The notes under the pieces were generated by a model. The model was not told the origin of the DNA. It did not search any database and was given only the letters and a program-made list of their open reading frames with translations. Position numbers and translations under genes: made by a program. A stretch of 64,000 bases of DNA from Xanthobacter autotrophicus (GTDB lineage: Bacteria > Pseudomonadota > Alphaproteobacteria > Rhizobiales > Xanthobacteraceae). Shown here in pieces: positions 11,288-53,732 of the stretch. Location of the stretch: assembly GCF_005871085.1 (NCBI RefSeq), contig NZ_VAUP01000035.1, positions 1 to 64,000 on the forward strand, written 5' to 3'. Numbering within the stretch: position 1 is the stretch's first letter; each line of letters begins with the position of its first letter.

Positions 11288-12240
<953 letters not shown>

Positions 12241-12245
12241 ACTTC

Positions 12246-12272
12246 GATGGGCCGGCCGCACGCCGGCCCATC
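12246..12272 (+). terminator. GC-rich hairpin after nifH1
   Basis: An 11-bp perfect stem (GATGGGCCGGC pairing with GCCGGCCCATC) starts 14 bases after the nifH1 stop. It lacks a T-run, so it may stabilise or process the 3' end rather than terminate on its own. Confidence 0.55.
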
Positions 12273-22222: not shown

Positions 22223-22672
22223 TCAGTCCGGCGAGATCATGATCTCCATGGTGTCGTCGAAATCGTCATACGGGAAGGGCCGCGGCTCCTCTTCCACCAA
22301 CCGGACGCCGCACAGGCACACATCACGGCCCACCACTGCCAGGGCGATGGGCTCCAGGTGCTTGCCCTCGCAGGCGCCTTCCACACAAGCCCCGCTCTCG
22401 ATGTCGAACAGCGATCCGTGGCGGCCGCAACGCAGTCGCGTGCGATCCGCATTGAAGAATTCGCCGCCGCCGATGTTCAGCCACGTCCCCTGGTGCGGGC
22501 ACGCATTCACATAACCCGCGAACTCCCGGACCCCGGTACGGATCACCACGATGCGGAAGGGGCGCGCCTCGCCGTCATCCATGACACGGGAGAGGTCGAA
22601 GGCCTTGGCCGCGCCGGGGGAAATCTGTTCAATCTCGCAGATGGCATAAATATCGATCTCGTCGGCAGACAT
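22223..22672 (-). CDS. Rieske 2Fe-2S protein, copy 1
   Basis: The 149-residue protein contains a complete Rieske motif: C-P-H-Q-G near residue 66 and C-G-R-H-G near 93, the two Cys and two His ligands of a 2Fe-2S cluster. There is no N-terminal membrane helix, so it is a soluble ferredoxin-type Rieske. An extra cysteine-rich stretch (G-A-C-V-E-G-A-C-E) follows the second motif. The ATG at 22672 begins M-S-A-D-E-I-D-I-Y, and the longer upstream frame looks non-coding. A related gene is at 39191-39649. Confidence 0.9.
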   Translation of the reverse strand: MSADEIDIYAICEIEQISPGAAKAFDLSRVMDDGEARPFRIVVIRTGVREFAGYVNACPHQGTWLNIGGGEFFNADRTRLRCGRHGSLFDIESGACVEGACEGKHLEPIALAVVGRDVCLCGVRLVEEEPRPFPYDDFDDTMEIMISPD

Positions 22673-22725
22673 CCCCGTCCCGCTCCCGTCCTGCCAGAAC
22701 CGCGCCGGCGAAAAATGCCGACCCC

Positions 22726-22741
22726 TGTCGCATATGAAACA
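22726..22741. promoter_or_regulatory. NifA-type site between Rieske and GST genes
   Basis: Exact TGT-N10-ACA (TGT CGCATATGAA ACA) in the divergent gap. Possible -24/-12 matches nearby are weak (22681-22696 on minus reads TGGCAGG-ACGG-GAGCG), so which gene it serves is unclear. Confidence 0.4.
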
Positions 22742-22883
22742 GACTGTCGGGACTTCCGGCCGCTGCGGCGGCGGGAGACCGAACTGCCCCGATATTTGCA
22801 TGAAGCATGCCGACTGCCGCCCTCCCCCCGGGGGCGACGCACGATGATGCGCGCGACGGATGGCACAGGATGGATGGCACACG

Positions 22884-27099: not shown

Positions 27100-27324
27100 T
27101 CAAGCAGCCTTGGTGGTGGCTTCGATCTTCAGCGCATCGACCGCGGTGCGCGTGAGGCGGAAGACGCCACGGCCGCCGGCCAGCGCTTGGTAGCTGTCCG
27201 CTGCCTGGTAGGAGAGAAAGTTGAACCAATCCTGCGGGTCGAGGCCCGTCGGACGTTCGCTGATCTCCACGATCGTGCCGTTGGGAGCGAACCGCGAGTG
27301 AATGATAACCGTTTCCGCGTCCAT
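27100..27324 (-). CDS. Unknown 74-residue nif-island protein
   Basis: Starts M-D-A-E-T-V-I-I-H-S-R-F and has G-G-R-G-V-F-R-L-T-R near residue 53. No family was recognised. It is separated from the nifB operon by a strong terminator at 27509-27546 and so needs its own promoter. I see no -24/-12 element with correct spacing in the gap. Confidence 0.6.
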   Translation of the reverse strand: MDAETVIIHSRFAPNGTIVEISERPTGLDPQDWFNFLSYQAADSYQALAGGRGVFRLTRTAVDALKIEATTKAA

Positions 27325-27508: not shown

Positions 27509-27546
27509 AAAAGGGGCGCCCCGCGACCCTGCGGGGCGCCCCTTTT
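27509..27546 (-). terminator. Terminator of the nifB operon
   Basis: A perfect 16-bp stem (AAAAGGGGCGCCCCGC and complement) around GACCCT, with A- and T-runs on the two sides. It follows the cysteine-free ferredoxin gene by a few bases. Confidence 0.9.
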
Positions 27547-27550
27547 GTAC

Positions 27551-27865
27551 TCAGAGGCCGGAGAACTCGCCGAGGAGTTCCACCGTCACGTTCTCGGTGC
27601 CGAGAACAGTGATGTACTTCGCGAGACGCGACTTCGAGCCCACGCCCACGATCGCGTCGAGCAGCTCGTTCTCCTCACGCGAGGTCTTCGAGAGGCCCTT
27701 GCGACCCTCTTGGACGAAGACGTGGGACGCGCTGCCGTCCTTGTCCGACGCCTGCCGCGCGGCGAGGCCCGGCTCGACGGTGATGAGCGCTTCGAGCAGG
27801 TTCGTCCCCTCCGCAACCTCAATGGTCTTTCCGGCGGGCATAACCTTCAACGTAACCGTGGACAT
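27551..27865 (-). CDS. Cysteine-free 2Fe-2S ferredoxin-fold protein
   Basis: The 104-residue product aligns with adrenodoxin-type and Shethna-II-type ferredoxins: E-G-T-N-L-L-E-A-L near residue 19, G-R-K-G-L-S-K-T-S-R-E-E-N-E-L-L-D-A near 54, and V-G-S-K-S-R-L-A near 75. All four cluster cysteines are missing, and there is no Cys anywhere in the protein. The usual C-x5-C-x2-C loop reads R-Q-A-S-D-K-D-G-S-A-S-H-V, and S-R-L-A-C reads S-R-L-A-K. It cannot hold a 2Fe-2S cluster in the normal way. It closes the nifB operon, 52 bp after the aminotransferase-like gene. The ATG at 27865 has AGGAG at six bases. Confidence 0.85.
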   Translation of the reverse strand: MSTVTLKVMPAGKTIEVAEGTNLLEALITVEPGLAARQASDKDGSASHVFVQEGRKGLSKTSREENELLDAIVGVGSKSRLAKYITVLGTENVTVELLGEFSGL

Positions 27866-27917
27866 CATAAGCTCCTGTCGTTTCAACTTTTGTGGTTGGA
27901 TGCGATATTATGTGCCT

Positions 27918-29120
27918 TCAGTAGATGGCGGCTCCCGCCCCTACGTTGATCGAGGCATCCTTCATCGTTGCGACGATGAACTCGATTTCGTCCTCGGACA
28001 GGTGCGTGTGGAACGGCAGGGCGATTGCCCGGTCGGCCACCTTCTCGGTCACCAGGAAGTCGCCCTTGCGATACCCGAGGTCGAAGTAATGGCGCTGCAG
28101 ATGCAGCGGCGCGCTGTAGGCCGCCGATTCCACCTTCTCCACCTTCAGGTCGTCGACGATGGCGTCGCGGCTCGACTTGGAGAAGCGGGTGCCCAGATGC
28201 ACCACGTAGAGGAACCAGTTCACCTCTGTCACATCCGGCCCGATGAAGGGATCCTTGATCCCCTCGAAGGACTGGACATACTTTTGATAGAGATGCTCAA
28301 CCGTATGCCGCTGCTCGAGAATCTCCTCGAGCCGTCCCAGTTGGGCGAGGCCAAGGGCGGCGGTCACGTCGCTCATGGCGCCCTGGTAAGGCGCGCTCAT
28401 GGAGACCACCACCGAAGATCGCTCATCCAGCCGGTGGGCACGGAAGCGCCGCAACCCCACCGCCACATCGATGTCGTCGGTCACCACCATTCCACCCTCG
28501 CCGCACACCAGCGGGAAGGGCTGTGAGAAATCGAACACGGATGTGTCGCCGAACGACCCAACCAGCGCGCCCTTGTAGCGCGAGCCGATGGCCTCGGTGG
28601 AATCCTCAATGAGGGCGAGCTTATGCGTCCGCGCCAACTCCTGGAAGGCGGTCCACGGCGCCGGATGGCCGTTGGAATTGCCAGCAACGATGGCCTTGGT
28701 CTTCTCGGTGATCTTGGCCGCGGCCTTTTCCGGAACCAGCGTCCCCGCCCAATAATCGATGTCGGCGAAGACCGGCCGCGCGCCCGAGAGACTCACGGCG
28801 TGGACCGTCTCGCGGAAGGAGTGGGGCGAGCAGATCACCTCGTCCCCGGGACCGATCCCATAGGCCTTGAGGGTGTAAAGCAGGCCCAAGGTGCCGCTGG
28901 GCACGGCCACCGCATATTTGCGGCCGAGATAGCCGGCGAACGCCGCCTCGAAAGCCTCTGCGGTCGGTCCGCTGGACAGGCGCGGTGCCTGCAGCGCCTC
29001 GGCCACGGCCTGAAGCTCAATGACGGTGATATCGGGATCCGACAACAGGATCGATGCGCCCTCGCCGCCGTCGTCGGCCGACAGGTCAGCGTCGTCGAAG
29101 AGATCCATGTCGCTCATCAC
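27918..29120 (-). CDS. DegT/DnrJ/EryC1-fold protein lacking the PLP lysine
   Basis: The 400-residue protein is a fold-type I aminotransferase of the DegT/DnrJ family: V-P-S-G-T-L-G-L near residue 73, I-E-D-S-T-E-A-I-G near 171 and G-E-G-G-M-V-V at 207. The lysine that binds PLP in this family sits in F-S-F-x-x-x-K-x-x-x-x-G-E-G-G. Here the segment is F-D-F-S-Q-P-F-P-L-V-C-G-E-G-G and Phe202 occupies the lysine position. It is in the nifB operon and overlaps the upstream small gene by 4 bp. Function is unknown. Confidence 0.85.
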   Translation of the reverse strand: MMSDMDLFDDADLSADDGGEGASILLSDPDITVIELQAVAEALQAPRLSSGPTAEAFEAAFAGYLGRKYAVAVPSGTLGLLYTLKAYGIGPGDEVICSPHSFRETVHAVSLSGARPVFADIDYWAGTLVPEKAAAKITEKTKAIVAGNSNGHPAPWTAFQELARTHKLALIEDSTEAIGSRYKGALVGSFGDTSVFDFSQPFPLVCGEGGMVVTDDIDVAVGLRRFRAHRLDERSSVVVSMSAPYQGAMSDVTAALGLAQLGRLEEILEQRHTVEHLYQKYVQSFEGIKDPFIGPDVTEVNWFLYVVHLGTRFSKSSRDAIVDDLKVEKVESAAYSAPLHLQRHYFDLGYRKGDFLVTEKVADRAIALPFHTHLSEDEIEFIVATMKDASINVGAGAAIY

Positions 29121-29380
29121 GCGCTCCGCCGGGCAAGGATGACACCCGTGGCGCTCGCCGGATCTAGCGTGATGTGCGCGCAGTGATCGGCGGTGTCGAG
29201 CAGGTGGATGTCGTATGTCGAATAGGTGCGGAATGGCGCTTCCGTGACATCGGAGGCGTCACATTGGGTCCAGGACAGGGCCGGAAACCGGCGGCGCAGC
29301 TCGGCAAAGACGGGCGCGGAGGCGTCCTCGGCCGTGAGGACCTGCTCAATCTCGGTGAGATCGCTGTCGCTGAGGGCCAT
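29117..29380 (-). CDS. Unknown 87-residue protein
   Basis: Begins M-A-L-S-D-S-D-L-T-E-I-E-Q-V-L and ends G-V-I-L-A-R-R-S-A. It has a D-A-S-D-V-T-E-A-P-F-R stretch near residue 40. It was not recognised. It overlaps the aminotransferase-like gene by 4 bp (ATGA), so the two are translationally coupled and probably act together. Confidence 0.65.
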   Translation of the reverse strand: MALSDSDLTEIEQVLTAEDASAPVFAELRRRFPALSWTQCDASDVTEAPFRTYSTYDIHLLDTADHCAHITLDPASATGVILARRSA

Positions 29381-29468
29381 AACTAACTCTCCCTTGCCGA
29401 AGATGAGACACGCCCGCGTCTTCTGTCGCGGGCCAAAGTCCCCCATGCAGGATCATTGCCAAATTAGA

Positions 29469-29798
29469 TCATTGCCAAAATTTGCGTTCGCTATCGTCGT
29501 TGAGGAGATCGAGGACCTCCTTCAGCCGGTCGTGCGTGCTGTCCAGCTCCCACAGCCGCGTGCCGTGGTTCTTCCGGAAGAGCTGCCAGGCGCCCTCGTC
29601 CGCGTCGAACAGCAGGAGGGCGATGTCCACAACGCCGCCCTCCGGATCGATATTGCGCGAGCAACACGCGCTTTCGATGCGATAACCGCCCTGGGTGGCC
29701 AGCACCCGGGGCGTGACATAGCGATAGCGCTTGCGCGCCTTGATGGCACGCTCGATGCGCTTCTTGTCGAGATCGTTCGGATGAGCGGGCAGCCTCAT
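29469..29798 (-). CDS. DUF3024-like protein
   Basis: The 109-residue protein has the features I associate with DUF3024: the N-terminal R-I-E-R-A-I-K-A-R-K-R-Y-R-Y-V-T-P segment, the S-A-C-C-S-R-N-I-D-P-E-G-G motif near residue 43 and a D-S-E-R-K-F-W-Q tail. No function is known. It lies 47 bp after the second nifZ gene in the nifB operon. The ATG at 29798 was chosen over a longer arginine-rich frame. Confidence 0.75.
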   Translation of the reverse strand: MRLPAHPNDLDKKRIERAIKARKRYRYVTPRVLATQGGYRIESACCSRNIDPEGGVVDIALLLFDADEGAWQLFRKNHGTRLWELDSTHDRLKEVLDLLNDDSERKFWQ

Positions 29799-29845: not shown

Positions 29846-30091
29846 TCACTCGAGCGGGGATATTTCTTCCTCGAGGCACCCCACCACCAGACGCTCCGTG
29901 AACTCGATCAAATAGATGGGCGTGTCGGTGTCAGTGTGGGTTCCCACCTGCACAATCTCGCCGGTGGTGCCAAGGCCCACCAGCAGCGCCTCTTCCGGAA
30001 AATCCGGATAGGAGCCATCATTATACAGGTCGATCAGCGTCTTGACCTTCTGGCCCCACTGGTACTTGGGGTTGCGCGGCTCGAGGATCAT
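29846..30091 (-). CDS. nifZ2: NifZ-domain protein, second copy
   Basis: The 81-residue protein has the NifZ signature N-D-G-S-Y-P-D near residue 24, L-L-V-G-L-G-T-T-G-E-I-V-Q-V near 36 and Y-L-I-E-F-T-E near 60. NifZ acts in maturation of the MoFe protein P-clusters. It overlaps nifZ1 by 4 bp (ATGA). Confidence 0.92.
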   Translation of the reverse strand: MILEPRNPKYQWGQKVKTLIDLYNDGSYPDFPEEALLVGLGTTGEIVQVGTHTDTDTPIYLIEFTERLVVGCLEEEISPLE

Positions 30092-30414
30092 GCTCTGGGT
30101 GCTCCGGGCACGGGGGGCAGGGGAATGTCTTCTTCGTCGCGCGGGATCGCGCTCTCGAGTTCCTTGCGCTTCATGCCCACGCGATTACCGCTTTCGGTAA
30201 ACTCGACGCCGTAGATATAGAATTGCTGCAGGAATGTGCCGATTGAAACCACATAGCCGATCTCGCCCTTCTTCGCGAGGATCTCACCGATTTCCTTACC
30301 GGCATAAGTTCCGTCATTGCGAATGACGCGCTTGGCCTTCACCTTTTCGCCGAAATTGAAGTAGGGCGGCTCTGAGACTTCGACCACATCACTGTCACGG
30401 ACAATGTTGCTCAT
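30088..30414 (-). CDS. nifZ1: NifZ protein, first copy
   Basis: The 108-residue protein carries the NifZ core F-N-F-G-E-K-V-K-A-K-R near residue 19, N-D-G-T-Y-A-G-K near 33 and K-G-E-I-G-Y-V near 49, close to the Azotobacter NifZ N-terminal part. It overlaps the LRV gene upstream by 4 bp and nifZ2 downstream by 4 bp. Confidence 0.93.
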   Translation of the reverse strand: MSNIVRDSDVVEVSEPPYFNFGEKVKAKRVIRNDGTYAGKEIGEILAKKGEIGYVVSIGTFLQQFYIYGVEFTESGNRVGMKRKELESAIPRDEEDIPLPPVPGAPRA

Positions 30415-31190
30415 AGCGGCATCTCCCTCAAAAGCTCCCCGCCCGATTTGGCGCGGGACCGGGCGACCTCGCGCACGAAGTCGTCGTCATCGTCGATCAG
30501 CTGGGACACCTGGGTCGGCGCAATGCGGCTTGCCACCTCGTAGCGCACCCGCCAGTCCGGATCGGCGACGAGCGCGGAGAGCAGATCGGGCGCGAGACGT
30601 TGAGCCACCTCCAGGCGGACCTGCGGACTCCTGTCGTTGACCATGCACATGAGCCATTCCGCCGGCAGCCGCTGGGCGACCACGCGCCGGACCTCGGCCT
30701 CGGGGTCCTCCACCATGCGTGACAGCAAGGGCGGTGCGATGCGCCGCGCCACGACGAGGCGCACATAATAGTCCTCGTCCGCCATCATGGGCGAAAGGTC
30801 GGCGTCCTCCAGCAGCGAGACGATGCGGATGCGGACCTCCCGGTGGGGGTCCTTGCGCAAGGGGAGAATCTTGTTCTTCGGCAGGCGGCGCGCCGCGTTC
30901 CACCGCACCGTTTCTTCCGGATCGTTCAGCAGCGCCGGCAGGACGAACACGTCCGCGTGCTTGGCCGCGATGGCCCGCACCTCGAAATGCTCATGTCGCA
31001 CATAGGAATTGGCGAGCGACGGGTTCCAATTGAAGAAGCGGTCGATGCGCCGGGCATAGCGATCATTCACGCAGGCCCGTCGCAGACGGCATTTTCCCTC
31101 CGCCAGGAGGTCCTGGTGGGCGCACGAGGAGCACTCGACGTCTTCCCCGAGCCAGTTCTTGGCCTCGTCGATGTCGTCTTCAGTCATCAT
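30411..31190 (-). CDS. LRV repeat protein with N-terminal 4Fe-4S domain, copy 2
   Basis: The 259-residue protein repeats the architecture of the gene at 16845: C-x2-C-x10-C-x5-C at residues 20-40, then LRV repeats (for example D-P-E-A-E-V-R-R-V-V-A-Q-R-L). It is paralogous to copy 1. It overlaps the TPR gene by 11 bp upstream and nifZ1 by 4 bp downstream, so it is tightly coupled in the nifB operon. Confidence 0.9.
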   Translation of the reverse strand: MMTEDDIDEAKNWLGEDVECSSCAHQDLLAEGKCRLRRACVNDRYARRIDRFFNWNPSLANSYVRHEHFEVRAIAAKHADVFVLPALLNDPEETVRWNAARRLPKNKILPLRKDPHREVRIRIVSLLEDADLSPMMADEDYYVRLVVARRIAPPLLSRMVEDPEAEVRRVVAQRLPAEWLMCMVNDRSPQVRLEVAQRLAPDLLSALVADPDWRVRYEVASRIAPTQVSQLIDDDDDFVREVARSRAKSGGELLREMPL

Positions 31191-31719
31191 CGTCCTGACC
31201 CGCCCTGTTCAGCACATCGAGCAAAAGCTTCGCACCGATCTTGTCGGTGGGGTCCAGCTCGAGCAACTTCATCACTGCGGCCCGCCCCTCCTCGAGATCG
31301 CCGAGGCGCATGTTGAGGTAGGCGTAGCCCTTCAGCGTAAACAGGAAGAACCGCGGCATCAGCCGGTCGTAGCGCGAGAATTCAGCATCCTGCGCACACA
31401 CGTCCCGCCAGTCGGCCGGCAGATTGGTTTCCCGCTGCGCCTTGGCCAGACACACCCGGGCCACCTCCAGGCATTCCCGAAGACGGCCCTTGTAGAAATA
31501 GAAGCGGTAGAGGCCGATCAGCACCGCGGCGTGACCGGGCGCCAGCGCCTCGGCCTGTCGCAAATGGGCTTCCGCCACTTCATCCTGCTGGTAGGAGAGG
31601 CCGGCTTCCCACAGATGATACTGTGCGTCCTCCGGCAGCCCTCCCCCCATGACGGCGCTCGCAAGGAGCCCCTCGGGGGTGAGAAAATCCGGTTCGCCCG
31701 AAACCTGCGAGCCTTCCAT
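31180..31719 (-). CDS. TPR-type nif-associated protein, copy 2
   Basis: The 179-residue protein contains TPR-like helices (Q-A-E-A-L-A-P-G-H-A-A-V-L near residue 53 and F-L-F-T-L-K-G-Y-A-Y-L-N near 128). It is a paralogue of the protein at 24463. The ATG at 31719 follows GAGGGA, and the frame upstream of it overlaps iscA and looks non-coding. The gene is in the nifB operon. Confidence 0.78.
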   Translation of the reverse strand: MEGSQVSGEPDFLTPEGLLASAVMGGGLPEDAQYHLWEAGLSYQQDEVAEAHLRQAEALAPGHAAVLIGLYRFYFYKGRLRECLEVARVCLAKAQRETNLPADWRDVCAQDAEFSRYDRLMPRFFLFTLKGYAYLNMRLGDLEEGRAAVMKLLELDPTDKIGAKLLLDVLNRAGQDDDD

Positions 31720-31811
31720 TCCCGTCCCTCGTTTCCGGTTCCATCCGCAGCCGACCCGGACCCGAGCCGCGGCAGCTCCGGAGCGGACGCGCCGCCCCGG
31801 ATGGTCACAGC

Positions 31812-32126
31812 TCAGTGGGCGTGCGAACTGCAGGTGGTCGCCTTGGGATCCTGGAACACCAGGCCCGTCTTGGCAGCCGTGTCGGTGAAGTCGATGGTGA
31901 CGCCATCGAGCAGCAGACGGCTTTCGGCCGGCAGGAACAGCTTCAGGCCGTCCTTCTCGACCACCGCGTCGCCCGGCGCGGGCTCCGGCAGAACCGCGAT
32001 CTCGGCATTGAGCCCGGAGCATCCACCGGGGGTCACATGCATCCGGAAGCCGGCGCTGGGACCGCCGTCGGCCATGATCATCATGCGGATGAAGCGCTGG
32101 GCCGAACGGGTCATCGTGAAATTCAT
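31812..32126 (-). CDS. Nif-type HesB/IscA protein with reduced cysteine set
   Basis: This 104-residue A-type Fe-S carrier homologue keeps the first cysteine in T-P-G-G-C-S-G-L-N near residue 36, but the C-terminal C-G-C-G motif reads C-S-S-H, so two cysteines rather than three remain. It is between the nifB-linked ferredoxin and the TPR gene. Three such paralogues occur in this window (5808, 31812 and 37305). Confidence 0.9.
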   Translation of the reverse strand: MNFTMTRSAQRFIRMMIMADGGPSAGFRMHVTPGGCSGLNAEIAVLPEPAPGDAVVEKDGLKLFLPAESRLLLDGVTIDFTDTAAKTGLVFQDPKATTCSSHAH

Positions 32127-32137
32127 CGCGTCTCTCC

Positions 32138-32362
32138 TTACGCGGTGGGCTGATAGCGCGGATACGCGTTGTCGATGACGCAGGTATCATCCACCGGGCA
32201 GACCGCAGCGCACTGGGGCACGTCGAAGTGACCAATGCACTCGGTGCACTTCTTGGGGTCGATCACGAACGTCCCGTTCTTCTCGAAGATGGCCACGTTG
32301 GGACACTCCGGTTCACAGGCCGAGCAGCTCGTGCACTGCGACGCCACGATTTTCAACGTCAT
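32138..32362 (-). CDS. 2[4Fe-4S] ferredoxin of the nifB operon
   Basis: The 74-residue ferredoxin has [12 protein letters not shown] and C-x2-C-x8-C-x3-C-P, the Allochromatium/FdxN type with an inserted loop. The ATG at 32362 follows an AGGAG site. It is directly after nifB and probably serves as an electron donor in FeMo-co synthesis or to NifH, as for FdxN next to nifB elsewhere. Confidence 0.93.
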
Positions 32363-32482
32363 GGGATGCTCCTTTGATGCCGAGCGCGCGATCTGATCGG
32401 CAGGACGGTCGTTTGCTTGAACGTGGAGGCAGATCCGCCCAGGCTGCTTCAACCTGAGCGGATCCGGCTTTGAGGGGGCGGT

Positions 32483-34045
32483 TCAGGCCGCGTTGGTGAG
32501 CGCGCCCTGACGGATCTCGGCGTCGCCGCGCTCCGCATGGACGATCTCGCCGGTCTTCACCTTGTTGAGGTATTCCTTGAACCAGGTGATGGCCGACTTC
32601 TCGATGAACTCGTGGGCGAAGCCGTCCACCGGCTCGATGCCGGCCTTGACGAGGTCAGCCTTCGGGCAGCCGCCGATCTTGGCCACGAAGACCGCATGGC
32701 AGTCGTTGATGGCACGGATGATGGTCTCGAGGCTGTCCTCCTCGCCGTAGCCGCCCTGGCAATACAGGTCGACGCGGCGATGGCCGACGAACTTGGCGCC
32801 GCCGGTGGAGAGTTCCCACACCTGGAACTCCTTGGCGTGGCCGAAGTGCTCGTTGATGAGGCCCGAGCCCTTGGTGGCCACGGCCACGAGCAGCTTGATG
32901 TCGCTCTGCTCGCCGGCGAGGGCTTCCATCTCTTCCTGCTTCGCGGCGACCTTCGCCACGCGCTCTTCCTCAACCAGGGCCTGGTAGGCCTTGCGGCTGT
33001 CGAGGTCGTAATTGACCTCCATGGCCATGATCTTGTCGGTGGTGAACTCGGCCGAGCGATCCTCGCCGAGGAGACCCACGGCGTCGGCGCGGCACTGGCG
33101 GCAATGCCGCATCATGTTCATCTCGCCTTCGCACGAATCCTGGAGCGCCTTCAGCTCCTGGGCCGTCGGGCCGCGCTGGCCGTTGAGGCCGAACACGGTG
33201 CCGTGCTCGGGTGCCGAGATGAGCGGCATGATGTTGTGCAGGAACGCGCCGCGGGACTTCACCGCCCGGTTCACTTCGACAAGGTGCTTGTCGTTGATGC
33301 CGGGGATCATCACCGAGTTGACCTTGCAGAGAATGCCACGCTCGGTGAGCATCTCGAGGCCCAGCATCTGCCGGTCAGTGAGGAGCTTGGCGGCCTCATA
33401 GCCGGTGTAGCGCTTGTGCTTCCAGAACACCCACGGATAGATCTTCGCGCCTACTTCCGGATCCACCATGTTGATGGTGATGGTCACGTGGTCCACGTTG
33501 AAGCCGGCGATGGTGTCCACATGGTCGGGCAGGGCCAGGCCGTTGGTGGACAGGCAGAGCTTGATGTCGGGGGCAGTCCGGTTGATCAGCTCGAAGGTCT
33601 GGAAGGTCTTCTCGGGATTGGCAAGCGGGTCGCCGGGGCCGGCGATGCCCAGCACGGTCATCTGCGGAATCGTGGAGGCGACCGCAAGCACCTTCTTCGC
33701 CGCCTGCTGGGGCGTCAGCTTCTCGGACACCACGCCAGGGCGGGATTCATTGGCGCAATCATACTTGCGATTGCAGTAGTTGCACTGAATGTTGCAGGCC
33801 GGGGCGACCGCAACGTGCATACGAGCATAGTGGTGGTGGGCTTCTTCGGAATAACAGGGATGGTTCTTCACCTTCTCCCAGATCTCGGTGGGCAGGTCAC
33901 CCTGGCCGGCGGACGAACCGCAGCTGGCCTTTCCGGAACCACCGGACGTACCGCAACCCTGGTGCTCCGCCTTGGCCTGCAGGGCCTCGGCCAGCTTATC
34001 GGCCACTGCCGCTTCAGTCGTCTCGTGCTGTGTCGACGCGTGCAT
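32483..34045 (-). CDS. nifB: FeMo-cofactor core synthase NifB
   Basis: NifB is the radical-SAM enzyme that fuses 4Fe-4S clusters into NifB-co, the core of FeMo-co. The 520-residue protein has the SAM motif C-N-I-Q-C-N-Y-C near residue 82 and a C-terminal NifX-like domain (about residues 395-510, with H-F-G-H-A-K-E-F). The ATG at 34045 follows GAGGAG, and the longer frame is not supported. The NifA/sigma54 promoter lies 53 bases upstream. It leads a long operon reaching 27551. Confidence 0.98.
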
Positions 34046-34097: not shown

Positions 34098-34113
34098 AGC
34101 AACTGCCGTGCCA
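34098..34113 (-). promoter_or_regulatory. Sigma54 -24/-12 promoter of nifB
   Basis: Minus strand TGGCACG-GCAG-TTGCT, a perfect consensus match. Confidence 0.93.
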
Positions 34114-34207
34114 GCGGCGCTACGGATAAATACGTAATGAATTTCAAATGCTTATAAATTGGCGCCCAGCTGTCGGCTTAACAACACGCACCGCGCGGGG
34201 AACGACA

Positions 34208-34223
34208 TGTTGGGAAAGTTACA
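34208..34223. promoter_or_regulatory. NifA upstream activator site of nifB
   Basis: Exact TGT-N10-ACA (TGT TGGGAAAGTT ACA), about 95 bp from the -24/-12 element. Confidence 0.82.
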
Positions 34224-34359: not shown

Positions 34360-35232
34360 TCAGGCGGCGACCGACATGATGATGTCCAGCGCCTTGGGCA
34401 ACGGCATGGCAATGGGCGTGATGGCGTGGGTCAGAAGGAAGCGCAGCTCGTTCTTGGTGAGCGACGCTTCGTCCACGATGGCGAAGTGCGGCAGGCGCGA
34501 ACGCTTTGTCACCTGCCGCGCATAGGTGCGCAGCATCTGGTCGTGGAAGCGACAGCCAAGGAACAGGAAGCTGCGCTCGGTGCGGCGGTTCTTCACCACG
34601 TCCGGGATCGGCGTCTGGATGTCGATCTCGGTCAGGACCTCCACATAGTCGGCGTCGGAGATCAGCCAGTTCTTGGCCGGCGCCACGCTGCCGTGGGGCT
34701 TGTAGAGCACCGTCGTCCAGGTTTCGGCCGCGGCACGGTCAGTCTCGTTACCGGCAGCATCATAGAAGCGATACCAGCGGTCCTCACCGATGCCGGCGCG
34801 GGTGATGCCCTGCGCCTCGCCCCAGCCCTCGCGGCCCTCCAGCGCTGAGCGCATGGCGCCATCGTACCAGGTGTCCACGATCAGCGGCAGGTTCAGGCCG
34901 GCGAGAAAGGTGTGGAACGGCAGCGGCGGCACCGGCGGGGCGAACGCATCGGCCATGAGAGCCGACACGGTGGACCGGTGCTTCATGCTCTCGATGTGCT
35001 GGGCGGCGGCCCAGGCGTTGCCCTTGGCGCGCTTGGGCAGCGCCACCTTGGTGCCGAAGAAGGCCGCAAGGCCCTCCGGTGTCACCGGGATGGCAGGCGA
35101 GGACAGCTCCAGGAGGCCGGGCCCCAGATAGGGCGCGGCCTTCCCAGCGACAAGCTCCGCCGCCACGTCCTTCAGGACGGCTTCGGCGTCGGCGAGCTTC
35201 AGCGTCTCAATATTGGCGACGGAAATATTCAT
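34360..35232 (-). CDS. SIR2-like (NAD-binding) protein linked to nif
   Basis: The 290-residue protein resembles SIR2-type NAD-binding proteins: Y-L-G-P-G-L-L near residue 35 in place of G-A-G-I-S, and L-Y-K-P-H-G-S-V near 183 with the catalytic-type His. No Zn-binding cysteine pairs are visible (a single Cys near 234), so it is in the SIR2_2-like branch. It ends the hesB-nifU-nifS-nifT set, just before the terminator, 6 bp after nifT. The function is unknown, and NAD hydrolysis or deacylation is possible. Confidence 0.82.
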
Positions 35233-35238
35233 GTCAGA

Positions 35239-35454
35239 TCACTCCTCCTCGCCGCGCTTCTTCGCGTTCACGGTGATGGGGAGGGTCGTACCCTCGGCCA
35301 TCTCCGGCAGGTCAAGCACCCAGCCGTTGGCGATCTTGATCCAGCCGCCCCACAGGGTCTCGTGCTCGGTCTCGACGATCGGCTCCTCAAGGTCCTTTTT
35401 GGGAACGTAGATGGAGAGGCCCATCTCCGGAGAACGGCGAATCATAATCTTCAT
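35239..35454 (-). CDS. nifT: NifT/FixU protein
   Basis: The 71-residue NifT has M-K-I-M-I-R-R-S-P, L-S-I-Y-V-P-K-K-D-L-E-E near residue 13, and W-G-G-W near 35. The role in nitrogen fixation is unknown and it is often dispensable. An AGGAG site precedes the ATG. It lies 186 bp after nifS, and that gap holds no gene or NifA site with correct spacing. Confidence 0.95.
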   Translation of the reverse strand: MKIMIRRSPEMGLSIYVPKKDLEEPIVETEHETLWGGWIKIANGWVLDLPEMAEGTTLPITVNAKKRGEEE

Positions 35455-35640
35455 ACAACTGGCTCCTCGATCGGCCTGGACTCGCCGCTGTTACCCGCGC
35501 CGACATCTGTGCGATGTCGTTCGTGGACGTCCGTGATGCGCCCGCCGACCGCTGCTATGGTCGGCATCAAGCATGCATTTCCTGTGGTGAAGGCGACGCG
35601 CGGCGGGGCGCATGCGCCAATCTCGCGCCCCGGATGAAGG

Positions 35641-36843
35641 CTAGACATGGCTGGCCACGGGTGCGCTGTCGGCACCCTCCCGCGCGAGCCAGGCCGGCGA
35701 CATGGCGCGCAGGCGGGTGACGATCTCCGGCAGCGCCTCCAGCACCCGATCCACGTCTTCGCCCGTGTTCTCGCGGGAGAGCGACAAGCGCAGGGCGCCG
35801 TGCAAGGCGTTGGCCGGCAGGTTCATGGCCCGCAGCACATGGGACGGCTCGGTGGAGCCGGAGGTGCAGGCCGAGCCTGTGGAGGCGGCGACGCCGGCCT
35901 TGTTGAGATTGTGCAGCACCGCTTCACCGTCGAGATATTCGAACGCGATGTTGGCGGTGTTGGGCAGGCGGTTCTCGCCATCGCCATTCAGCAGGGTGTT
36001 GCTCACCTGCTGGAGGATGCCCTGTTCGAGCCGGTCGCGCAGCGCCTTCACGCGAGTGCGCTCGTCCTCCATGTGCTGGAGCGCGAGATCTGCCGCAGCG
36101 CCAAGACCGATGATACCCGGCACATTTTCGGTGCCGCCCCGGCGTCCGCGTTCCTGATGGCCGCCACGAATAAGGGGGCGAAACTTCACACCCTTCCTCA
36201 CATAGAGCGCGCCGATGCCCTTGGGTCCGTGCAGCTTGTGGCCGGACAGGGACAGCATGTCGATGGCGGTGGATTTCAGATCGATGGCCACCTTGCCCGC
36301 CGCCTGCACCGCATCGGTGTGGAACAGCGCACCGACCGCCTTCGCCTGTTCGGCGAGCGCCGCCACGGGGAACAGCGTGCCGGTCTCGTTATTGGCCCAC
36401 ATCACCGAGGCGATGGCGGTCTTCGGTGACAGCGCCTTGGCATAGGCATCAAGATCGAGCCGGCCGTGACGGTCCACGCCGATGAGGTGGACCTTGATGC
36501 CGCGCGTCTTTTCGAGATGCGCGACAAGGGTCAGGATGGCGGGATGCTCCACCGAGGTGGTGACGATCTCGTCCCGCCCGTCCTGCGTCTCCAGCGCGGA
36601 GAGGATGGCCGCATTGTCGGCTTCCGTTCCGCCGGAGGTGTAGATGATCTCGTGGTCGAACGCGGCGCCGAGCAGCGCCTGGAGCTGCTTGCGCGCCTTC
36701 TTCAGTGCCTCGCCCACATGCTCGCCGAAGGCGTGGGTGGATGAGGCATTGCCGAAGTGCTCGCTGAAGAACGGCAGCATGGCCTCGACCACAGCGGGGT
36801 CGGTCCGTGTCGTCGCGTTATTGTCGAGATAGACAGGCCGCAC
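35641..36843 (-). CDS. nifS: Cysteine desulfurase NifS
   Basis: NifS releases sulfur from cysteine for nitrogenase Fe-S clusters. The 400-residue PLP enzyme has the lysine motif S-L-S-G-H-K-L-H-G near residue 200, and the active Cys in T-G-S-A-C-T-S-G near residue 323. It starts 39 bp after nifU on the same strand. Confidence 0.97.
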   Translation of the reverse strand: MRPVYLDNNATTRTDPAVVEAMLPFFSEHFGNASSTHAFGEHVGEALKKARKQLQALLGAAFDHEIIYTSGGTEADNAAILSALETQDGRDEIVTTSVEHPAILTLVAHLEKTRGIKVHLIGVDRHGRLDLDAYAKALSPKTAIASVMWANNETGTLFPVAALAEQAKAVGALFHTDAVQAAGKVAIDLKSTAIDMLSLSGHKLHGPKGIGALYVRKGVKFRPLIRGGHQERGRRGGTENVPGIIGLGAAADLALQHMEDERTRVKALRDRLEQGILQQVSNTLLNGDGENRLPNTANIAFEYLDGEAVLHNLNKAGVAASTGSACTSGSTEPSHVLRAMNLPANALHGALRLSLSRENTGEDVDRVLEALPEIVTRLRAMSPAWLAREGADSAPVASHV

Positions 36844-36882
36844 GGCATCACCCCTTCGATCGTCTAAGCCTTGGCGCGCCCC

Positions 36883-52791: not shown

Positions 52792-52817
52792 GGCCGACCC
52801 CGCAATTGGGGCCGGCC
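52792..52817 (-). promoter_or_regulatory. Hairpin between nifH2 and nifD
   Basis: GGCCG and CCCC pair with GGGG and CGGCC around GCAATT with one mismatch. A stem between nifH and nifD is a known way to set the ratio of Fe protein to MoFe protein. Confidence 0.6.
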
Positions 52818-52823
52818 TCGCTG

Positions 52824-53732
<909 letters not shown>

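Follow-up and report, generated by a model that had tools for sequence, protein, structure and literature searches.

A lysine-less DegT-fold protein encoded in nifB operons is a candidate non-catalytic factor of nitrogenase maturation

The window analysed here, a stretch of 64,000 nucleotides from Xanthobacter autotrophicus, is a Xanthobacter nif island; the nearest record among the best 80 of 239 relatives belongs to X. oligotrophicus 29k and agrees with it at 100% over the DegT protein. Our reading of its open reading frames confirmed the first-pass annotation in placing four consecutive ORFs downstream of nifZ on the minus strand (27551-29798). These ORFs end a nifB operon (Table 1) that begins nifB - 4Fe-4S ferredoxin - HesB/IscA-like (as we take this product to be) - TPR - LRV - nifZ - nifZ and continues DUF3024 - DUF6129 - DegT-like - ferredoxin-like, followed by a hairpin and then by a small gene, "t". 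ATG 34045 is preferred as the nifB start because the promoter of the operon sits within the longer ORF, which reaches 34147. The DegT-like gene, whose product we call AT, starts at GTG 29120 or ATG 29117; if the former is correct, its 4-base overlap with the DUF6129 gene suggests translational coupling. Related genes also lie beyond the block, on one side the SIR2_2, NifT and NifS genes directly upstream of nifB (34363-36882) and on the other the small gene t (27100-27324); 71 of the best 80 of 239 loci have a homologue of t downstream of their DegT gene. Identification of t as NifT was rejected, as its product has no Pfam match and the actual NifT is encoded at 35242-35490.

Table 1. Genes and signals of the nifB operon and its surroundings in the window
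Feature	Coordinates	Strand	Remark
Small conserved gene t, no named family	27100..27324	-	3' of hairpin
Hairpin, 16-bp stem, probable terminator	27509..27546	-	directly 3' of block
Cys-less relative of Isc/adrenodoxin-type [2Fe-2S] ferredoxin	27551..27868	-	
DegT/DnrJ/EryC1/StrS-fold pseudo-aminotransferase, Lys-less (AT)	27918..29120	-	core of the finding
DUF6129 protein	29117..29380	-	constant neighbour of the pseudo-aminotransferase
DUF3024 protein	29469..29798	-	Pfam match
NifZ, second copy	29846..30091	-	
NifZ, first copy	30088..30414	-	
LRV protein with LRV_FeS4 domain	30411..31190	-	
TPR protein, start uncertain	31180..31755	-	
HesB/IscA-like protein	31812..32126	-	presumed name
4Fe-4S ferredoxin	32138..32365	-	
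NifB	32483..34045	-	ATG 34045 preferred (read by eye)
-24/-12 (sigma54-type) promoter of nifB operon, TGGCACGGCAGTTGC	34099..34113	-	0 mismatches
Two TGT-N10-ACA (NifA UAS-type) sites, 34171-34186 and 34208-34223	34171..34223	-	
SIR2_2 protein	34363..35238	-	in relatives, belongs to the same gene string
NifT/FixU	35242..35490	-	
NifS-like class V enzyme	35644..36882	-	

The block had been described as lying under the nifB promoter and before a strong terminator, and both signals were recovered. The match upstream of nifB is one of five -24/-12 matches without mismatch in the window, and between nifB and the block the minus strand contains no perfect match and one with a single mismatch (30725-30739). 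Because the -24/-12 pattern at up to two mismatches is not enriched in the window (82 observed, 74 expected), the promoter call rests on its perfect match and its position; the TGT-N10-ACA motif is enriched (22 observed, 4.75 expected). The hairpin directly downstream of the block folds with -36.4 kcal/mol (z -4.4) and was not listed by a consensus terminator scan.

The position of the DegT gene in the nifB operon is conserved, and the string that contains it was found in alpha-, beta- and gammaproteobacteria. In Methylococcus and Paraburkholderia plasmids, as in several other genomes, the string runs nifB - ferredoxin - HesB - TPR - LRV - nifZ - nifZ - DUF3024 - NifS-like - nifT - DUF6129 - DegT and ends with SIR2 and a [2Fe-2S] ferredoxin, either of which may come first; some of these strings are without DUF3024, HesB or the ferredoxin. 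A Bradyrhizobium locus (L118) has NifS, NifT and SIR2_2 upstream of nifB and apart from the DegT gene, as in the window, and at three further loci (L134, L137 and L140) the nifB string includes DUF6129 and lacks the DegT protein.

By sequence profile and fold type I, AT belongs to the DegT/DnrJ/EryC1/StrS family (Pfam DegT_DnrJ_EryC1, 294.5 bits). The column that holds the Schiff-base lysine for pyridoxal phosphate (PLP) is Phe202 in the window protein, in agreement with the first-pass annotation, and none of 97 nif AT rows has lysine there, the residue being S, L, G, F, V, A or Q. These rows comprise 80 loci (L006-L085), 16 from further loci and the window, and leave out matches below 100 bits (the L089 fragment among them) and a single gapped fragment from a gene broken between frames; the number of independent rows is slightly smaller, as L118 seems to repeat the record of L069 and L006 is nearly identical to the window. 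Two ordinary DegT paralogues that belong to the same genome (L002 and L003) have the lysine, as do all 15 ordinary DegT rows of nifH+ genomes in a 56-row tree, in which the 41 Lys-less rows are set apart by a branch supported at 100/100. On the simplest reading, the lysine would have been lost once, before the alpha-, beta- and gammaproteobacterial copies of AT spread.

Other positions of the pocket have changed as well. Residue 197 is Asp in 41/41 nif rows, compared with Ser, that of the FSF motif, in 15/15 ordinary rows, and alignment with 3bn1 indicates a change from Asn to Gln at a further pocket column; we presume that this Ser and the Asn/Gln column are contacts of the PLP phosphate. AT also carries a nif-specific C-terminal tail in which N392, G394, A395, G396 and I399 are invariant and A398 and Y400 are present in 40/41 nif rows. 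Apart from L003, the ordinary rows that score below 300 bits, 14 in number, end 2-9 residues past the matched part and lack the motif, and even L130, the most divergent nif row, has it at its end, so the tail is not an artefact of trimming. An AlphaFold model of AT is of middling quality (mean pLDDT 67.1), with residues 385-400 below 50. Lys-less, altered in its pocket and constrained, AT is by these sequence characters a predicted pseudoenzyme.

Constraint was estimated by the pairwise Nei-Gojobori method on chosen loci: seven from Xanthobacter, eight with a four-Cys ferredoxin, 21 of 28 nodA+ loci that have lost the ferredoxin and all nine nodA- loci in which it is intact. The dN/dS of AT was 0.162 in Xanthobacter, 0.139 in both the nodA- and the four-Cys sets and 0.111 in nodA+ Bradyrhizobium, and that of NifB was 0.106, 0.085/0.082 and 0.117, respectively, such that AT is approximately 1.5-fold less constrained than NifB outside the nodA+ set. 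In the nodA+ set (21/28 loci) the values for DUF6129 and DUF3024 were 0.258 and 0.162. Locus L049 carries a DegT gene divided between frames. These estimates indicate that AT is under purifying selection near that of NifB. Purifying selection cannot separate a scaffold from a catalyst.

Two surveys tie AT to nitrogen fixation. In the order, surveyed with the same settings for nifH, AT and DUF6129 in 249 genomes each (at most 7 candidates scored per genome for AT and 21 for DUF6129), nifH was found in 43 genomes; AT was present in 6/43 nifH+ and 0/206 nifH- genomes, and DUF6129 in 19/43 and 0/206. Among nifH+ Pseudomonadota, we surveyed 79 of 87 genomes with full-length nifH, having dropped eight near relatives (G516, G540, G560, G596, G617, G583, G684 and G663) and excluded two genomes with partial nifH (G292 and G708). 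The AT profile matched at 461 bits or more in 14/79, the next match scored 232 bits, and the looser matches are ordinary DegT proteins in which the lysine is present. AT thus appears to be an old, nif-specific protein that, within the order sample, is found only in nifH+ genomes. Because 65 of the 79 genomes do not have it, AT cannot be essential to nitrogenase generally.

The gene directly before that of AT had been called an 87-residue protein without family. The ORF is real, and its product is a DUF6129 protein (PF19624, 24.7 bits against a gathering cut-off of 23.6) modelled as a compact alpha-beta structure (pLDDT 86.6), for which comparison with the PDB gave no clear match. DUF6129 lies directly before the DegT gene in 80/80 loci (the best 80 of 239). 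Among the 79 nifH+ genomes, it is present in 26, DegT in 14, the nif-type ferredoxin (above 110 bits) in 10 and DUF3024 in 8. DUF6129 accompanies AT in 13 of 14 AT+ genomes, the exception being G715, where it was not detected, and occurs in 13 of 65 AT- genomes (Fisher p 5e-7, for genomes that are not independent); of the near relatives dropped from the survey, G516, G540, G560 and G596 have DUF6129, and none of these four is listed with AT. DUF6129 therefore appears to be the wider gene, which AT nearly always accompanies. DUF3024 (PF11225, 68.4 bits against a gathering score of 24.9), in which C45, C46, S47, R48 and H78 are invariant in 24 aligned members, lies near the DegT gene in 77 of the best 80 of 239 loci (it is absent in L066, L076 and L084) and occurs without AT in one of the 79 genomes.

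The window ferredoxin-like protein has no cysteine, as stated in the first-pass annotation, and hence none of the four cluster ligands. It matches NCBIfam fdx_isc at E 1.8e-10, under the cut-off of that model, and has no Pfam match; 20 of 23 members of its family match Fer2, and the nearest solved structure to the family profile is 1i7h (E 3e-16). A ferredoxin homologue of at least 90 residues lies 3' of the DegT gene in 48 of the best 80 of 239 loci, and four cysteines are present in 36 of these 48 and five in one more. The remaining loci have shorter pieces (17), no ferredoxin (14) or no room for one (1). One of the short pieces, L019, is simply cut by the end of its contig. In a ferredoxin tree that rests on 99 columns, in which Cys-poor rows may attract each other, nine Xanthobacter rows without cysteine group with rows that have one (Methylocystis sp. 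B8), two and three cysteines in a single clade (98/92), most simply read as one stepwise loss; outside that clade, L126 has three and L068, a decayed Bradyrhizobium piece, has none. The view that cysteine loss characterises the block in general is rejected, as the loss is special to the Xanthobacter gene and its near kin. Of the two proteins that had been proposed to have lost their catalytic or ligand residues, then, the description holds for the family in AT, where the loss appears ancient, and for one lineage in the ferredoxin. The dN/dS of the Cys-less Xanthobacter ferredoxin (0.180, versus 0.095 in four-Cys relatives) indicates that it is still selected, less strongly than those relatives. 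Among the 79 nifH+ genomes, all 10 with a nif-type ferredoxin above 110 bits at any place have AT; the matches in G041, G452 and G207 contain an in-frame TGA, and that in G041 is far from its nif string.

In 30 of the best 80 of 239 loci, all of them Bradyrhizobium and all retaining AT, the ferredoxin is decayed (16) or missing (14). Using the presence of NodA as the indicator of a nodule lifestyle (L051 was outside this count), we found that within Bradyrhizobium and near kin NodA is absent from 9 of 10 loci with an intact four-Cys ferredoxin (L075 is the exception) and present in 28 of 30 loci where it is lost or broken (the exceptions are L034 and L085); Fisher's test gives p 2e-6, which is overstated because the rows share descent. 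This pattern fits a need for the ferredoxin in free-living fixation, for which oxygen would be one possible cause. Since DegT, DUF6129 and DUF3024 remain constrained in nodA+ loci, the role of the ferredoxin appears to be separable from theirs, although shared descent weakens the count. The four genes had been proposed to act as one module. Independent occurrence had been named as grounds for refuting this, and in part it is seen (DUF6129 without DegT in 13/79 genomes, DUF3024 in one, and AT-keeping loci without an intact ferredoxin), so that an obligate four-gene complex is not supported; we infer that DUF3024 and the ferredoxin are accessories. A non-enzymatic role in nitrogen fixation, the other half of that proposal, is probable for the DegT protein.

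Our best explanation, to which we assign a probability of about 0.5, is that AT is a PLP-independent pseudoenzyme which, together with DUF6129, serves the maturation of nitrogenase by scaffolding or by binding clients. NifB, NifZ, HesB-like, LRV-FeS, NifS and NifT proteins belong to the pathway of nitrogenase and cluster maturation, and it is from these operon partners that a maturation role for AT is deduced. AT descends from a sugar-modifying enzyme, and because it is Lys-less and yet firmly maintained beside a small partner gene, it is probably a scaffold in the building or handling of nitrogenase and not an enzyme. What was once the cofactor pocket would, like the tail, now bind some conserved partner or ligand in the assembly line of NifB, NifZ, NifT and NifS, with DUF6129 as a near-obligate partner and DUF3024 and the ferredoxin assisting the pair; the Xanthobacter ferredoxin-like protein, which lacks the ligands for a normal cluster and is still selected, would probably act by docking and not by electron transfer. 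A more detailed version is speculative: AT may be the hub of a maturation complex, holding DUF6129 and a client linked to NifB, NifZ or NifS through its emptied pocket and its NxGAGxAIY tail, with the Xanthobacter ferredoxin as a cluster-free docking part.

Alternatively, AT could be a regulatory or sensor subunit whose pocket binds a metabolite (an amino acid, nucleotide sugar or adenylate) and which tunes nitrogenase or NifS, with SIR2_2 and NifS as targets. The proximity of AT to NifS, NifT and SIR2_2 in beta- and gammaproteobacterial and some other clusters would fit this arrangement, and there is a precedent in the Lys-less SPT1, which, according to the available part of the source, pairs with the catalytic SPT2, itself unstable without SPT1 (PMC6148460). 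In the window and L118, however, those three genes lie away from the DegT gene, and the neighbour that is constant is DUF6129, leaving regulation a doubtful, if tenable, reading.

It is rather unlikely that AT is still an enzyme, using pyridoxamine phosphate (PMP) in the manner of ColD and E1, which have His in place of the lysine, or another general base. The old site is conserved and not drifting (D173 and E176 are invariant in 56 aligned rows, and SGT is mostly kept), and ColD and E1, the latter including an H220K mutant, are among the PDB relatives of AT. The Lys column of AT is never His, however, the changes from Ser to Asp and from Asn to Gln argue against binding of PLP or PMP, and among the annotated gene strings of relatives none included a sugar-nucleotide gene.

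That the block forms an oxygen-protection complex, for which the FeSII (Shethna) protein offers a comparison, seems improbable. Survival of a ferredoxin relative without cluster ligands would be compatible with it, and the distribution of the ferredoxin (intact in 9 nodA- loci and 1 nodA+ locus, lost in 28 nodA+ and 2 nodA- loci) is what would be expected if it were needed outside the nodule. Yet those rows are related by descent, the other three genes are selected in nodA+ strains too, such that they do not share the need, the ferredoxin is Isc-like by sequence, and oxygen protection as such gains no support from the present results. Finally, the losses of Lys and Cys resemble decay, and the Bradyrhizobium ferredoxin fragments truly are decayed, but the view that the block genes are relics carried along in the operon is very improbable and was rejected because DegT, DUF6129, DUF3024 and the Cys-less ferredoxin all have dN/dS values well under 1 and because AT, in addition, has new nif-specific invariants.

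In the literature searched, which covered few subscription journals, DUF6129 was not mentioned and nothing pointed to a nif-cluster DegT protein. A query combining DegT, nifH and nifB returned one match, a soil community survey. Transfer of nitrogen fixation to crops needs a full parts list of nitrogenase assembly, and AT, nearly as constrained as NifB, is a candidate for a missing part in one class of diazotrophs. Its pairing with AT makes the function of DUF6129 testable, and the ferredoxin clade, whose members have 3, 2, 1 and 0 Cys, shows ligand loss in natural steps on which working by docking alone can be tested.

Several known systems come close to the one described here. The nifB1-rcc03265-nifZT-rcc03262 operon of Rhodobacter capsulatus exemplifies nifB operons that have NifZ, NifT and SIR2 and appear to lack the DegT protein; it is NifA-dependent, its SIR2 gene follows NifT as in the window and the product of that gene was undetected in a nifA mutant, and a DegT pseudoenzyme is not named in the available part of that report (PMC6925177). 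Isc Fdx and adrenodoxin-type ferredoxins include the closest solved relative of the block ferredoxin family, 1i7h, and differ from the window protein and the eight other Cys-less Xanthobacter rows of the tree, which have 0/4 ligand cysteines. Compared with GDP-perosamine synthase and ArnB, which are DegT/DnrJ/EryC1/StrS sugar aminotransferases, AT is without the PLP lysine, has Asp for Ser in the preceding motif, has an added C-terminal tail and, within the order sample, is nif-exclusive. The constant neighbour of AT is a small unrelated protein, and SPT1/LCB1, a subunit of eukaryotic serine palmitoyltransferase, belongs to another subfamily; nonetheless, as far as the available part of the source describes it, SPT1/LCB1 is, like AT, a Lys-less protein of the PLP family, one that has been retained as a non-catalytic subunit (PMC6148460).

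Occurrence of the DUF6129 gene is not confined to neighbourhoods of the lysine-less DegT-fold pseudo-aminotransferase gene (DegT gene), as several loci (L135, L136, L138, L139 and L142-L146) carry DUF6129 in nifH-type strings that lack the DegT gene. The gene order there is NifT and a weak NifB match followed by DUF6129, and we take the weak match to be, probably, the NifX/NafY-like part of NifB. Remnants of the nifB-operon block (DUF3024, DUF6129, DegT and ferredoxin-like genes) were seen at L089, on a plasmid of Bradyrhizobium sp. 187, where a weak fragment match is left of DegT, and at L131 (genome G305), which is without DegT and has only a weak trace of DUF6129. A block copy of alphaproteobacterial type also lies on a contig filed under a Chitinivibrionia MAG (L076), which is perhaps misbinned.

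Among 80 loci with the DegT gene (L006-L085), 71 have a small conserved gene downstream of it; the window copy gave no match in a Pfam search. At locus L034 (9158-9600), reading by eye showed that the usual place of the ferredoxin after the DegT gene is taken by a Rieske-like protein, with a globin-like gene next in line; the window has a similar Rieske-like ORF. Homologues of the SIR2_2-domain protein lie close to nif genes in many of the fetched clusters.

Features of the window
Feature	Position	Strand	Remark
nifH	11332-12257	+	
Rieske-like ORF	22223-22882	-	read by eye
Small conserved gene	27100-27324	-	Pfam: no match
GATCATTGCCAAA, twice	29451-29479		DUF3024 gene end; direct repeat, 3-base spacing; read by eye
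SIR2_2-domain protein	34363-35238	-	adjoins NifT/NifS
nifH	52810-53732	-	

The two nifH copies of the window, inverted relative to each other, are 99.1% identical over 926 bases, and a third copy is located on a separate contig, C16.
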